NCBI GenBank assembly: GCA_021797815.1
Contig: JAJZYZ010000023.1
Span: 1 to 38,792, forward strand
DNA length: 38,792 nt
Direction: 5' to 3'
From: Bacillota bacterium
GTDB lineage: Bacteria; Bacillota; Sulfobacillia; Sulfobacillales; JAIMBI01
This document shows positions 3,496 to 9,585 of the stretch, piece after piece. The number at the start of each line of letters is the position of its first letter. Position 1 is the stretch's first letter. Both the position numbers and the translations under genes were made by a program. The notes under the pieces were generated by a model that was given only the letters and a program-made list of their open reading frames with translations, had not been told where the DNA came from and did not search any database.

Positions 3496-5856
3496 ATGGC
3501 GAGTGAGGCATTTGGGTCGCCGGGCGTGCCGGGCCGCTGGACGTCTGCCCAGAAGAGCGGCGTCGGGGCGGCATTCGAAGGAAGTCCGATCTGGTTCACG
3601 CTGTCGCATGGCATTGTGAACGAGGTGTACTGGCCGCGGATGGACCAGGCGGCGATCCGAGACCTTGGCTTTATCGTCACCGGGCCCGACGGGTACTTTG
3701 TCGAGGAAAAGCGGCAGGCCGCTTCCGTCACCACGCTGGCGGATCCTGGGGTTCCCTGCTACCGCATCATAAGCACCGCCCCAGGCGGAGAGTGGGAGAT
3801 TGAAAAAGAGGTCCTAAGTGATCCCCTCCGGCCGGTAGTGCTCCAACGGGTGTCGCTGCGGGTCAAGCAGGGCAACCCGGAAGACTTTCACCTTTATGCG
3901 ATTCTAGCGTCGCACCTGGACAATCACGGGGCCGGCAACTCCGCCTGGCGGGAGAATTTCAAGGGAGCGCCGGCGCTCTTTGCCGCACGCGACTCGTATG
4001 CGCTGGCCCTCATGGCGGACCCCGACATGCGCGACGGATCGGTCGGCTTTGTAGGCTACTCGGACGGCTGGCAGGACCTCCGCCAGCATGGCAGCCTCCA
4101 ATGGCACTTCGATCGGGCCGACAACGGCAACGTGGCGTTGACCGCCGAGCTTGACGTGGGAAACGGGCCCGTCACGCTGGCGCTGGGGGCCGGAAGGACG
4201 GCGGCCGAGGCCGCCGTCCAGGCGCGGGGTGCGCTTGCCGCCGGATTCGACCACGCGCGAGGCAGTTACGTGGCCCCCTGGAAGCGGTGGCAGAAGAGTC
4301 TCCGCTCCGCCCCCGGCCGATCCCTGTATCCCGTCAGCGCTATGGTTGTGCGGGTCCACCAGTCGGAGCTGGTACCGGGCGGCATCCTGGCCAGCCTTTC
4401 CGTTCCGTGGGGCTCCAGCAAGGGCGACGGAGATCTCGGCGGCTACCATCTGGTGTGGTCTCGCGACATGGTGGAGGCCGCAAGCGGCCTTCTTTCCACG
4501 GGCGACGAGACCGGGGTGCAGCGGGCGCTCGAATATCTGCGGGCCGTACAGGAATCTGACGGGCACTGGCATCAGAACATGTGGCTCGACGGCACCCCCT
4601 ACTGGTCGGGCATTCAGATGGACGAGACGGCGCTTCCAATCCTGCTGTTCGAGCTGGCACGTCGCGAGGGGGCGCTCGGGCCCGAGGCCCTGCACGACTT
4701 CTGGCCGATGATCCGGCGGGCAGTGGAGTATGTGGTCCAAAACGGCCCCGTAACCCAGCAGGATCGCTGGGAAGAGGACGGCGGCTATACGCCGTTTACC
4801 CTCGCCGCTGAAATTGCCGCCCTGCTTGCCGCCGCCGAGCTGGCCGAGCTCGTGGGCGAACCCGCCCTGGCGCCTTATCTGCGCGAGACGGCCGATGCCT
4901 GGAACGCCCAGATCGACCATTGGCTCTATGTGGAGAACACCGAGACGGCGCGGCTCGTCGGCGTCGACGGCTACTATGTCCGCATTACGCCCGCCGACTA
5001 CGACGACGGCGGGAGCCTCGTCGCCATCAAGAACCGTCTGGGGCCGTCCTCCATCCGGGCCGCGTCGGCCGTTATCAGCACGGATGCACTGGCGTTTGTC
5101 CGGTTTGGCCTGCGGGCGGCGGACGACCCCCGCATCGTGAACACCGTGAAGGTCATCGACGCTCTCCTGCGCACCGAGACCCCATCGGGTCCCTCGTGGC
5201 ACCGGTACAACGAAGATGGCTACGGTGAGCACGAAGACGGGAGTCCCTTTGACGGTACGGGAGTCGGGCGCCTGTGGCCGCTCTTGACGGGCGAGCGCGC
5301 TCACTACGCTCTGGCTGCCGGCGACCTGACCGAGGCCGACCGTCTCTTAAAAGTGCTGGAGAGCTTTGCCGGGGAAGGCGGCCTCTTGCCGGAGCAGATC
5401 TGGGACACCGAGGACATCCCCGAGCGAGAACTGTACTTCGGCCGTCCATCAGGCTCGGCCATGCCCCTCGTCTGGGCCCACGCCGAGTACCTGAAACTCG
5501 TGCGTTCGCGGGCCGAGGAGCGGGTGTTTGACATGCCGCCGCAGACGGTGGCCCGCTATCTACATCAGACCCCGCCCGCGGCGGTGTGTGCCTGGCGCTT
5601 CAATCATAAGATCCGGCAGATAGAGCCCGGCTCGCGCCTCCGAGTCGAAACGCTCGCGCCTGCCCGGGTGCATTGCAGCATCGACGGCTGGGCCACCACC
5701 ATGGAGCTGGAGACAACAGACACCGGCCTGGGTATACAATACGCAGACGTGCCGACCGCCGGCCTTGCGGCCGGCGATCGCGTGCTGTTTACGTTTTTCT
5801 GGCCGTCGACCTCCAACTGGGAGGGCACCGACTTTGAAGTGATGGTGACCGGCTAG
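3496..5856 (+). CDS. Glucan 1,4-alpha-glucosidase (GH15 glucoamylase/glucodextranase type)
   Basis: This 786-aa enzyme should release glucose from the non-reducing ends of alpha-glucans. Residues 1 to about 270 form the beta-rich glucodextranase-type N domain (GSPIWFTLSHGIVNEVYWPRMD near residue 30). About 280-690 is the (alpha/alpha)6 GH15 barrel with GGYHLVWSRDMVEAA and DGHWHQNMWLDG. The catalytic acid is probably E426 in DRWEEDGG and the catalytic base E633 in LLPEQIWD; their spacing fits the family. About 690-786 is a beta-rich C-terminal domain. No signal peptide is present, so it probably acts inside the cell on glycogen or imported maltodextrins. GGAGG precedes ATG 3496. Its stop codon overlaps the stop of the convergent disulfide oxidoreductase gene. 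Confidence 0.93.
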   Translation: MASEAFGSPGVPGRWTSAQKSGVGAAFEGSPIWFTLSHGIVNEVYWPRMDQAAIRDLGFIVTGPDGYFVEEKRQAASVTTLADPGVPCYRIISTAPGGEWEIEKEVLSDPLRPVVLQRVSLRVKQGNPEDFHLYAILASHLDNHGAGNSAWRENFKGAPALFAARDSYALALMADPDMRDGSVGFVGYSDGWQDLRQHGSLQWHFDRADNGNVALTAELDVGNGPVTLALGAGRTAAEAAVQARGALAAGFDHARGSYVAPWKRWQKSLRSAPGRSLYPVSAMVVRVHQSELVPGGILASLSVPWGSSKGDGDLGGYHLVWSRDMVEAASGLLSTGDETGVQRALEYLRAVQESDGHWHQNMWLDGTPYWSGIQMDETALPILLFELARREGALGPEALHDFWPMIRRAVEYVVQNGPVTQQDRWEEDGGYTPFTLAAEIAALLAAAELAELVGEPALAPYLRETADAWNAQIDHWLYVENTETARLVGVDGYYVRITPADYDDGGSLVAIKNRLGPSSIRAASAVISTDALAFVRFGLRAADDPRIVNTVKVIDALLRTETPSGPSWHRYNEDGYGEHEDGSPFDGTGVGRLWPLLTGERAHYALAAGDLTEADRLLKVLESFAGEGGLLPEQIWDTEDIPERELYFGRPSGSAMPLVWAHAEYLKLVRSRAEERVFDMPPQTVARYLHQTPPAAVCAWRFNHKIRQIEPGSRLRVETLAPARVHCSIDGWATTMELETTDTGLGIQYADVPTAGLAAGDRVLFTFFWPSTSNWEGTDFEVMVTG

Positions 5857-6503
5857 CCGCCGAGCGCCTGCCGCACCGTACGCATGAGCTGCGCCTCGGG
5901 CACGGCTCCGGTGACCTGTGCCTTGCCGTTCACCACCGTCATCGGGACACCCGACACGCGGTAGCGATTGGAAAGCCGGTCAAAGCTTCCGGCGTCCACC
6001 ATGTCCGCGACCACATGCGTCGGGTTCAACCGCGCGATGTCATGTGCCAGGCTAACTGCCTGGGGGCAATACGGTCAGGTAGGCGTCACAAACACCTGGA
6101 GATGCAGTGGCTTTTCCAGATTCTCAATAAAGTGCACGGTCTCCGGACTCAGTTCGGGGGCCACCCGGCTGGAGATGCCCACCACGTCCTGCAGAAACGT
6201 GCCGAACTCGCGGCCGCCCGGGAATCCGAGATAGCGCACGCCGGTCGGCTGCCCGTTGGTCGTGAAAACGCTGACGGAACTGGTCATTTCGTCATCAAGA
6301 TCGGGGGCCACAAGCGGGGCCGCTCCCTCCTGACGCTTGACGGATACCTTCGGGTTCACATCCGACAGGTCGTGAAGGAGTTCATTCATCGCGTCTGACG
6401 CGGCGTCGCCCGCCTTCGGATAAAACAGGACCTCCACCGGGTCCACCATCTGGTCGAGAAGGGCCGCCACTTCCTTTTTTAGCGACTCATCCAGCATCGG
6501 CAT
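5853..6503 (-). CDS. Protein disulfide oxidoreductase (PDO, double thioredoxin fold); putative selenoprotein with in-frame UGA at the first active-site Cys
   Basis: Read through one TGA, this frame encodes 216 aa matching the PDO/glutaredoxin-like family (two thioredoxin folds, about 220 aa). The first 142 codons end in LHLQVFVTPT. Then comes TGA (6077-6075, codon 143), then PYCPQAVSLAHDIARL and the cis-Pro loop SGVPMTVVNG, ending at TAG 5853. PDOs have TPTCPYCP here, so the TGA replaces exactly the first Cys of CxxC, giving UPYC. A hairpin follows at once (separate entry). TGA acts as a stop in neighbouring genes, so genetic-code reassignment is unlikely. The N-terminal fold has lost its CxxC (FYPKAGDAAS). 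AGGAGG lies six bases before ATG 6503. Alternatives are a point mutation or a sequencing error making a pseudogene. The frame is otherwise intact for 73 codons. Confidence 0.75.
6041..6071 (-). promoter_or_regulatory. Candidate bacterial SECIS hairpin just downstream of UGA
   Basis: On the minus-strand transcript, CCAGGC (6063-6058) pairs perfectly with GCCTGG (6052-6047) around the five-base loop AGTTA. After a CCC bulge the stem extends by TG/CA, then by TAT/ATG with one G-U pair. The loop begins 17 nt after the UGA and has G at its second position followed by U. This agrees with what is known of bacterial SECIS elements: a stem-loop inside the coding region, with the apical loop roughly 16-37 nt from UGA and a G early in the loop. 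The hairpin is seen directly; its function is inferred. Confidence 0.55.
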
Positions 6504-6735: not shown

Positions 6736-7533
6736 ATGACAGCCGTGCTAAAGGTTCATCCAGAACTCAGCGATGACCGGCTCCTAAAACTGTTCGAGTC
6801 CGGAGTGGAGAGGCAGTGGAGTGGCGAGCTCCTGCAGTGGACAGAACCGGAAACATGGGATCGGGTGTCCTTGCAGGCGCTCGGCGCTCTTTTGACACCG
6901 GTGTACCTCGGCGAACAGACCGCCATGCTGGGGGTCTCGATGGTTCTGCCCAAGCTGGCGCTGGCCCATGATACCGAGGCCACTTTGTACCTTTCCACCA
7001 TGGGGCTTGACGAGGCGCGTCACTTCCGGAACCTCTCTCATCTCTACCAGGCGCTCGACATGAAACCCTGGGCAACTCGCCAGGTGCCCGAGATGTGGCG
7101 CTATCACACCCGGCTTATGAAAAGCGGCGACCCCATCGACTGGCTGTGGGGCATCCTCATCAGCGACCTCTTTGCGCGACTGTTCTACGGCCGGCTCCGT
7201 GACCAGTACCCGGATCGCATCGTCGGCCGTCTCGCGCGGCGCACGCTCGTGGATGAAGCGCGGCACCAGGCGTTCGCCGATCTTTACCTGTCGCCGCGTC
7301 TTCGCCATATCTCACAAGAGCGCCGGGATGCGCTCCTCAACCTCCGCGACGACCTCTTTCGCACCATGGATCAGCTGACCGTGCGCCTTGCCGGTCCGCT
7401 CGACGATCTGGGCTGGTCGGGCCAGGCGTTCTTGGAAGAGTTGTGGGACGACACCGAACACTGGGCGGAGCGTCTCGGCCTGGTTGTTCCGTCGAAGCCG
7501 CCGGTGCCGGTGCCAGCCGCCGTTACGGATTAG
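6736..7533 (+). CDS. Ferritin-like diiron protein (two DEARH motifs)
   Basis: A 265-aa helical protein with the four-helix-bundle diiron pattern: E60 (YLGEQ), E93 and H96 in DEARH (92-96), D144 (ISDLFARLF) and E174/H177 in a second DEARH (173-177). Spacings of 33 and 30 residues within the two halves fit ribonucleotide-reductase-R2/oxygenase-like ferritin superfamily members. One usual Glu ligand appears to be Asp. Such proteins activate oxygen with a di-iron or Mn/Fe centre; the substrate is unknown. ATG 6736 lies only two bases from AGGGAGG, so GTG 6745 is a possible alternative start. The gene is divergent from the putative selenoprotein PDO, which could suggest a redox partnership, but that is only inference. 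The 3' end overlaps the convergent histidine kinase gene by 11 nt. Confidence 0.75.
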   Translation: MTAVLKVHPELSDDRLLKLFESGVERQWSGELLQWTEPETWDRVSLQALGALLTPVYLGEQTAMLGVSMVLPKLALAHDTEATLYLSTMGLDEARHFRNLSHLYQALDMKPWATRQVPEMWRYHTRLMKSGDPIDWLWGILISDLFARLFYGRLRDQYPDRIVGRLARRTLVDEARHQAFADLYLSPRLRHISQERRDALLNLRDDLFRTMDQLTVRLAGPLDDLGWSGQAFLEELWDDTEHWAERLGLVVPSKPPVPVPAAVTD

Positions 7534-8908
7534 GCTCGGGCACGAGCGGCGCGTCAAGCGTCACCTCGGTTCCCTGTCCGGGTGTGGAATGAAGCTCGAA
7601 GTGTCCGCCCAGGGCGCGTGCGCGCTCGCGCAAGTCCATGAGCCCGTAGTGGCCGACGCGCTCCGCGTTCTCGGGTTCGAACCCCGTGCCGTTGTCCTCT
7701 ACGCTGATGTGAAATCGTGCGGTGTCGGATCGCCACATGACCCGCACCGACGAGGCGCGCGCGTGGCGGGCCACATTGGTCAGCGCCTCTCGGATCCAGC
7801 CCTCCAGCTGCTCGGACGCGATGTCAGGCAGCGCGCGATAGCCGGCGTCGGCAGCGTCCACTCTCACCAGGGTCCCGATCCCGAGCTCCTGGGCGATGCG
7901 GGCGACGGCGGCCGGCAGATCTTCGCGCTCCTGCCGCAGGTCAAACACGTAGTGGCGGATATCGTTGGTGATGCGTGAAAGGCGGTCTCCCAGGTCATCC
8001 AGCACCTGCCGGATGTGACGTTCCTCTTTCGGAATCTTGGGCAGGAGAGTGTCGATGGCCAGCGTGACCCCGTATAGGGACTGGATCGTCCCATCGTGCA
8101 GGTCCATGCCGATGCGCTGCCGTTCCTCAACCACCGCCAGCCGTTCCACCTGCCGGTTCAGGCGGGCATTGGTCACGAGGGCGGCCGTCTGGGCCGCCAG
8201 GAGACTCACCACATCCTCGTCATCCGCGCTGAAGGGCCCGCCCACTTTGTCTGTGAGATACAGGTGGGCAACAACCTGGTCGCCAAACAGCGCCGGCACA
8301 CCGAGAAACGTAGTCATGACCGGATGACCGGACGGAAATCCCGAGGAGCTCGGGTGGCGGCTCATATCATCCACCCGCAGTGCCTGGCGGCTCTTGATAA
8401 CCTCGCCAAGCAGACCGTCCCCACGCGGCAGGTGGGTGATGGCCGCCTTTTCCGCATCGGTGAGGCCGGTGGTAATGAAGCGGCCGATCCCCCCCTCGTC
8501 GTCCAGAACCGCGAGCGCCCCGTAGCGCGCGCCCGTCAGCTCGCACGACAGCTCCACCACGCGTCTTAGGATGACCTCCCAATCCCGCTCGCCCGCGATG
8601 GTGGCCATAGCCTCATGAAGGAATCGCAGCCGATCCCGCTGCTCCTCGGTAGTCTTCAAGAAGGTGGCGCTCTCTGCCGACACCAGCTTTATGCGCCGCA
8701 GGAACACATGGGAGTACGCAATCGTCAGCACCACGGCTACCCCGAACACCCAGGGATCGGTGGTGGAAGCCGGCCATCGGCGGCTCAGAAGGCCACGGTC
8801 GAGAGCCGCCAGGGCGGCCAGCGCCGCGGCCGGACCCACGTACGCCAGCCAGTAACCGGCCCGTGTCAGGGGTGCAAGCGACGGGGGCCGCGCGCCGCCT
8901 TCCGGCAT
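7523..8908 (-). CDS. GAF-domain sensor histidine kinase (NarL-type, HisKA_3)
   Basis: This 461-aa kinase has two or three N-terminal hydrophobic segments (AGYWLAYVGPAAALAALAAL and PWVFGVAVVLTIAYSHVF). A GAF domain of about residues 100-245 follows (TGARYGALAVLDDEGG to LLAAQTAALVTNARL). The dimerisation helix is ERQRIGMDLHDGTIQSLYG with phospho-accepting H271, and the HATPase domain has REALTNVARHA as N box and DNGTGF as G1 box. It should autophosphorylate and pass phosphate to the regulator encoded just upstream. The regulator's TGA and this ATG overlap (TGATG), implying translational coupling. The GAF ligand (haem, cofactor or small molecule) cannot be told. A universal stress protein gene next door resembles GAF-kinase stress systems such as DosS, but that link is inference. 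Confidence 0.93.
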   Translation of the reverse strand: MPEGGARPPSLAPLTRAGYWLAYVGPAAALAALAALDRGLLSRRWPASTTDPWVFGVAVVLTIAYSHVFLRRIKLVSAESATFLKTTEEQRDRLRFLHEAMATIAGERDWEVILRRVVELSCELTGARYGALAVLDDEGGIGRFITTGLTDAEKAAITHLPRGDGLLGEVIKSRQALRVDDMSRHPSSSGFPSGHPVMTTFLGVPALFGDQVVAHLYLTDKVGGPFSADDEDVVSLLAAQTAALVTNARLNRQVERLAVVEERQRIGMDLHDGTIQSLYGVTLAIDTLLPKIPKEERHIRQVLDDLGDRLSRITNDIRHYVFDLRQEREDLPAAVARIAQELGIGTLVRVDAADAGYRALPDIASEQLEGWIREALTNVARHARASSVRVMWRSDTARFHISVEDNGTGFEPENAERVGHYGLMDLRERARALGGHFELHSTPGQGTEVTLDAPLVPEPNP

Positions 8909-9585
8909 CAGCTCTCCGAGCGCCGATCCGCGCCCACCTCGCGGCGGGCCAGGTACGCCGCCGCCTCGGCGCGGCGCGCCAGGCCCAGTTTCGCCAGGAT
9001 GTTGCTGACATAGTGCTTGACCGTCTTCTCACTTAAGAACACCTGCGCGCCAATCTCCCGATTGGTGAGACCATCGGCAATCAGGCTCAGAATCCGGCGC
9101 TCCTGGGCGGTCAGGGTGTCGATGGGATCGGTCGGCGCGGAGTGGGTGGCCCGCTGCAGCACCCTGTCCGTCAGAGAGGGATCAAGGATGGATCCTCCTT
9201 CGGACACGGTACGGATCGCGTCCACCAGCTGCGGGCCTCGAGCGCTTTTCAGCAAATAACCCGACGCTCCTGCCGCCAGCGAGTTAAACAGGAGCTCATC
9301 GTCGCCGAAAGACGTGAGCATGATGACACGTGTTTCAGGCTGAGCCTCTTTCCAACTCCGACAGACCTCTACTCCCGATCCCCCCGGAAGACGCACATCC
9401 AGCAGGAGTACGTCCACCGGCGTGCTCTTCATCATCTGCATCGCTTCGGAAATCGTGCCGGCCTGCCCGACGAGCGAGAAGTCCGACTGTTCTTGCAAGA
9501 GTCCGGCCAGCCCCATGCGCACCACCTCGTGGTCATCTACCAGGGCGACACGAATGACCTCCGGACCCTCTTCCCCGACGTTCAT
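8908..9585 (-). CDS. LuxR/NarL-family response regulator
   Basis: A 225-aa two-domain regulator. Residues 10-130 are the receiver: acidic pair D17/D18, phosphoacceptor D63 in LLLDVRLPGGSG, T91 and K113 (YLLKSA). Residues 155-215 are a LuxR-type helix-turn-helix (LTAQERRILSLIADGLTNRE, then LSEKTVKHYVSNILAKLGL). It is the cognate partner of the downstream kinase. ATG 9585 has GAGG only one base upstream, which is unusually close. The true start could lie slightly downstream, before IRVALVDDHE. Likely targets include the divergently transcribed universal stress protein, since dyad sequences lie in the shared intergenic region. Confidence 0.93.
   Translation of the reverse strand: MNVGEEGPEVIRVALVDDHEVVRMGLAGLLQEQSDFSLVGQAGTISEAMQMMKSTPVDVLLLDVRLPGGSGVEVCRSWKEAQPETRVIMLTSFGDDELLFNSLAAGASGYLLKSARGPQLVDAIRTVSEGGSILDPSLTDRVLQRATHSAPTDPIDTLTAQERRILSLIADGLTNREIGAQVFLSEKTVKHYVSNILAKLGLARRAEAAAYLARREVGADRRSES

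Follow-up and report, generated by a model that had tools for sequence, protein, structure and literature searches.

Does the TGA codon that interrupts an otherwise open minus-strand frame in the Bacillota contig analyzed here (the window, 38,792 nucleotides in all) end a gene, or is it read as selenocysteine (Sec)? Comparisons among related genomes indicate, with near certainty, that the in-frame UGA is genuine and encodes Sec at the active site of a protein with a thioredoxin fold, in a bacterium of the acid-mine type. The features discussed below are listed in Table 1.

Table 1. Location of the predicted selenoprotein gene, of its parts and of the neighboring genes in the window
Feature	Position	Strand	Evidence or remarks
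Predicted Sec-containing protein disulfide oxidoreductase (PDO) gene, 216 aa, TAG stop	5853..6503	(-)	translation, TIGR02187 profile, homologues, PDO alignment
In-frame TGA, probably read as Sec, first position of CPYC	6075..6077	(-)	translation, homologues, PDO alignment
Region upstream of UGA: degenerate N-terminal thioredoxin-like domain without CxxC, start of second domain	6078..6503	(-)	
Remainder of C-terminal thioredoxin domain after UGA, including cis-Pro segment VSGVPMTV	5856..6074	(-)	
Bacterial SECIS-like hairpin CCAGGC-AGUUA-GCCUGG	6047..6063	(-)	folding, silent-site codon test, pairing across UGA genes
Convergent glycosyl hydrolase 15 family gene	3496-5856	(+)	3' end overlaps selenoprotein gene end by four bases
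Divergent neighbor, 343 aa	6502-7533	(+)	no Pfam match
GAF-domain histidine kinase and LuxR-type response regulator pair	7523-9585	(-)	

The minus-strand translation of 6503-5853 reads MPMLDESL...LQVFVTPT*PYCPQAVSLAHDIARLNPTHVVADMVDAGSFDRLSNRYRVSGVPMTVVNG...RQALGG*. As stated in the first-pass annotation, the frame contains one internal TGA only (6077-6075), and is closed by a regular TAG at 5855-5853. The ATG at 6503 is preceded by the Shine-Dalgarno-like sequence GAGGAGGTG, which by eye makes a good ribosome site. The protein is made of two tandem thioredoxin-like domains with a single active site. The N-terminal unit, FYPKAGDAASDAM, has no Cys and hence no CxxC; in the C-terminal unit the context of the TGA is TPT-TGA-PYCP, which gives a UPYC motif at the catalytic site. 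The placement of the UGA at the first Cys of CPYC was borne out, as the codon aligns exactly with the first Cys of TPTCPYCP in the Pyrococcus PDO.

The window was scanned for TGA codons having a Cys codon three positions away and long open frames at both sides. Five were found, and only that at 6077-6075 has, by eye, protein-like surroundings. The other four lie in what looks by eye like low-complexity, wrong-frame sequence, and appear to be chance occurrences. In the divergent neighbor, the motifs EATLYLSTMGLDEARH and DEARH look by eye like those of a ferritin-like diiron protein.

Conservation of the UGA and selection downstream

Homologues of the window protein were searched for in 61 genomes, its own and those of relatives, which include "Bacillota" metagenome genomes as well as Sulfobacillus acidophilus AMDSBA3, and were identified in 47. 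Judging by the names of these relatives, the organism belongs to the order of Sulfobacillus. Thirty homologous genes were extracted for codon comparison, and they come from a single order, that of Sulfobacillus and its kin. All 30 read [U/C]PYCP. Sought in these relatives, the UGA recurs at the same codon in 27 genes (TGA), the remaining three carrying a Cys codon (TGC). The TGA-bearing genes span many independent assemblies, single-contig and two-contig genomes included; sequencing errors and a local pseudogene are thereby excluded.

Substitutions were monitored by comparing the gene with that of a sister species, whose protein shares 90% identity. In the 71 codons read 3' of the TGA, 17 changes were found, all in third position and none in positions 1 or 2. 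The corresponding values (dN 0.006, dS 0.37, dN/dS about 0.02) denote stronger constraint than that measured before the TGA (dN 0.066, dS 0.72, dN/dS about 0.09), and the only sensible reading of this difference is that the downstream part is translated. A gene decaying from a nonsense mutation at the TGA, or a TGA introduced by sequencing or assembly, could be reconciled with the fact that selA and the tRNA-Sec are not seen in the assembly of this organism (see below), but is refuted by the conservation of the codon, clashes with the strong purifying selection acting after it, and is regarded as highly improbable.

Many distant thioredoxin-fold paralogues of the order also feature one TGA in frame, which suggests that its Sec-containing thioredoxin-like proteins form a large set.

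The SECIS-like hairpin

The hairpin located 3' of the UGA has a 6-bp stem and a loop of the xGUxx type, which begins 17 nt after the codon. All six stem pairs are formed in 25 of the 27 UGA genes, four pairs in the other two, and the loop GU is present in all 27. Pairing falls from 97% to 13–52% when the arms are slid by 1–3 bases. The stem codons +4 (Pro), +5 (Arg), +8 (Arg) and +9 (Leu) are each represented by one codon in nearly all genes, with shared-codon probabilities of 0.86, 1.0, 0.92 and 0.85, respectively, versus expected values of 0.35, 0.30, 0.30 and 0.24. Codons flanking the stem are mostly free at silent sites, two Ser codons being the only ones flagged among those tested outside the stem. 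In the three Cys genes the +9 codon is TTG or TTA, instead of CTG.

The folding energy is mildly low relative to synonymous recoding (median z -1.3), and is not lowered in the three Cys genes (z about 0). For the single hairpin of the window the difference is not significant (z -1.3, p 0.11), so that the case for a SECIS element is carried by the constraint at silent sites. No double compensatory changes were found in the stem, covariation being limited to exchanges of A-U with G-U and of G-C with G-U pairs.

Sec machinery and its distribution

The genome in which the gene resides (G000) is a 2.9 Mb draft in 142 contigs, 97.75% complete. Part of the Sec machinery was located in it. SelB (G000:C139, 354 bits summed over matches in one frame) and SelD (G000:C15, 362 bits) were found, but neither selA nor the tRNA-Sec was detected in the draft. 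For the latter, the covariance model gave below-cut-off matches only, and those inspected correspond, according to ARAGORN, to Ser, Arg, Gly and similar tRNAs.

The selD gene (G000:C15:19166-20098, L016) is itself a selenoprotein gene. It reads TGKSGUGCKLGP, the UGA sitting on the catalytic position (GUGC). The UGA might be decoded as another amino acid, through a genome-wide change of the code or a suppressor tRNA. Nothing specific speaks in favor of such decoding, which seems improbable in the extreme: in PDO as in SelD, the two genes examined, the internal UGA falls exactly on the catalytic Cys position, that of PDO is followed by a constrained hairpin, and homologues carry at the site Cys and no other residue.

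Among the 26 genomes searched, SelA was found over cut-off in 24 and tRNA-Sec in 22; the sister species has both. Its tRNA-SeC (anticodon TCA) was confirmed by ARAGORN and lies at contig ends. Its selA is located between etf-like genes and a run of hem genes (names assigned by eye from translations). In G000, contig C126 starts at base 1 inside hemB and covers the hem side only, and selA and the etf side of the sister locus have no match in the genome. The place occupied by selA in the sister species thus falls off the assembly, and the missing selA looks like an assembly gap. The sister DNA flanking the tRNA-Sec is almost absent from G000, and the tRNA too is likely missing through a gap. Single Sec genes are commonly absent from drafts in this order; G015, as an example, carries selA and the UGA form of the gene, and lacks selB.

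The three Cys genes are unevenly placed with respect to the machinery. Both genomes of genus g12 (G018 and G026) carry the Cys form (L037 and L027, respectively); in both, SelB was not found at the strict limit used, nor SelA over cut-off, and in G018 no tRNA-Sec exceeded the cut-off. Protein form and Sec machinery go together in this genus, from which the Sec trait has apparently been lost. The third Cys gene resides in G039, a 59% complete genome having selA and selB, and the Cys form therefore occurs beside the machinery too.

These data bear on the chance that the species analyzed is losing, or has just lost, its Sec system, in which case the UGA would now be the end of the gene, a recent relic. 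Both the failure to detect selA and tRNA-Sec in its genome and the example of genus g12, which uses Cys and has no selA or selB over cut-off, lean towards a loss of this kind. Yet the genome has an intact selB as well as an intact selD of the Sec type, selA may lie just beyond the hemB end of C126, and the closely related sister species has a full Sec set. Such a recent loss is accordingly considered very improbable.

Taken together, conservation of the UGA, purifying selection downstream, the SECIS-like hairpin and the Sec genes support the claim of the first-pass annotation that the locus encodes a UPYC selenoprotein. With high confidence, the gene is best explained as a putative selenoprotein of the TIGR02187 UxxC family, a predicted UPYC thiol-disulfide reductase in which Sec insertion would depend on SelB and the hairpin.

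Family placement and proposed role

Residues 6-212 of the window protein match positions 2-208 of the 209 in the NCBIfam profile TIGR02187 (PDO_seleno_TRX), with an E value of 5.3e-53, and no other family comes near in score. Reading U as C, the match scores 179.5 bits, 5.5 below the curated NCBI cut-off of 185, so that automatic naming may miss the protein. Among homologues, L048 scores 201.8 and five others 166–184.

The assignment to the PDO family holds for the thioredoxin fold, given the matches to TIGR02187 and to the solved PDOs 1a8l and 1j08, which extend over both domains and in which the UGA falls on the catalytic Cys, but the N-terminal CxxC of the archaeal type is missing. Like the archaeal-type enzymes (1a8l and 1j08 from Pyrococcus, 2ayt from Aquifex), the protein has two tandem thioredoxin-like units, and the C-terminal TPTCPYCP of the Pyrococcus PDO aligns with its TPTUPYCP. 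It differs from them as Sec replaces the first Cys and a CxxC motif in both units, the mark of two-site archaeal PDOs, is not found. The missing N-terminal motif places the protein, as judged by sequence, nearer to the single-site subgroup resembling the N-terminal domain of AhpF than to archaeal PDOs. The AhpF N-terminal domain has a single redox site, a feature shared with the window protein. AhpF residues 1-187 (1zyn, 1hyu) align over residues 3-202, and the plasmid matches listed are AhpF proteins, about 26–29% identical to the window protein. Unlike AhpF, the latter is free-standing, lacks the flavin reductase part, and is predicted to contain Sec.

Published compilations of bacterial selenoproteins include selenium forms of the family (PMC1794560, from 2006; PMC9312934 and PMC13188914, reviews of 2022 and 2026). 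UxxC selenoproteins of the TIGR02187/AhpF-N-homolog type are known in Carboxydothermus and Symbiobacterium (PMC1794560). The window protein resembles them in the full-length profile match and in the UxxC motif with Sec in first position; the host group, the Sulfobacillus order, is new as far as the literature found shows. The gene is therefore new, as had been proposed, but not the type of selenoprotein, since the family has been published since 2006 and is listed in NCBIfam under a name denoting selenium. What is new is the example in the Sulfobacillus order, of which the most interesting aspects are the use of Sec throughout that order and the switch between Sec and Cys. Use of Sec in the Sulfobacillus group was already known from passages reporting a Sec peroxiredoxin upregulated in ore-grown Sulfobacillus thermotolerans (PMC7409299) and Sec formate dehydrogenases in every Sulfobacillus genome covered by one study (PMC4378227); the window protein is not discussed in these passages.

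SelB, bound to the hairpin just 3' of the UGA, would help the ribosome to insert Sec. The product would be a cytoplasmic thioredoxin-fold thiol-disulfide reductase with one UPYC redox center in the C-terminal domain; the UPYC site, the cis-Pro segment and the family together suggest a reductase of disulfides or oxidized peroxiredoxins. Going by the chemistry of the family, the Sec selenolate would attack the substrate disulfide or the oxidized peroxiredoxin, the resolving Cys of PYC would close a Se-S bond, and this bond would be reduced again by a TrxR-type flavin reductase. The enzyme would likely deliver electrons to peroxiredoxins and repair oxidized thiols in an aerobic, acid, metal- and sulfide-rich setting.

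Recognition of the Sec codon corrects the annotation of an enzyme that standard gene callers would cut short or divide in genomes across the order, bioleaching species included. The closely related Sec and Cys forms found in the order may be useful for testing the benefit of Sec in acid, metal-rich aerobic cells; in one genus, absence of the machinery matches the Cys form. We give an even chance to the hypothesis that Sec-PDO is ancestral throughout the Sulfobacillus order, a group of acidophiles with many Sec-containing proteins of the thioredoxin fold, and that a genus went back to Cys on losing its Sec system. If true, the order would serve as a natural experiment on the reasons for which acidophiles retain Sec.
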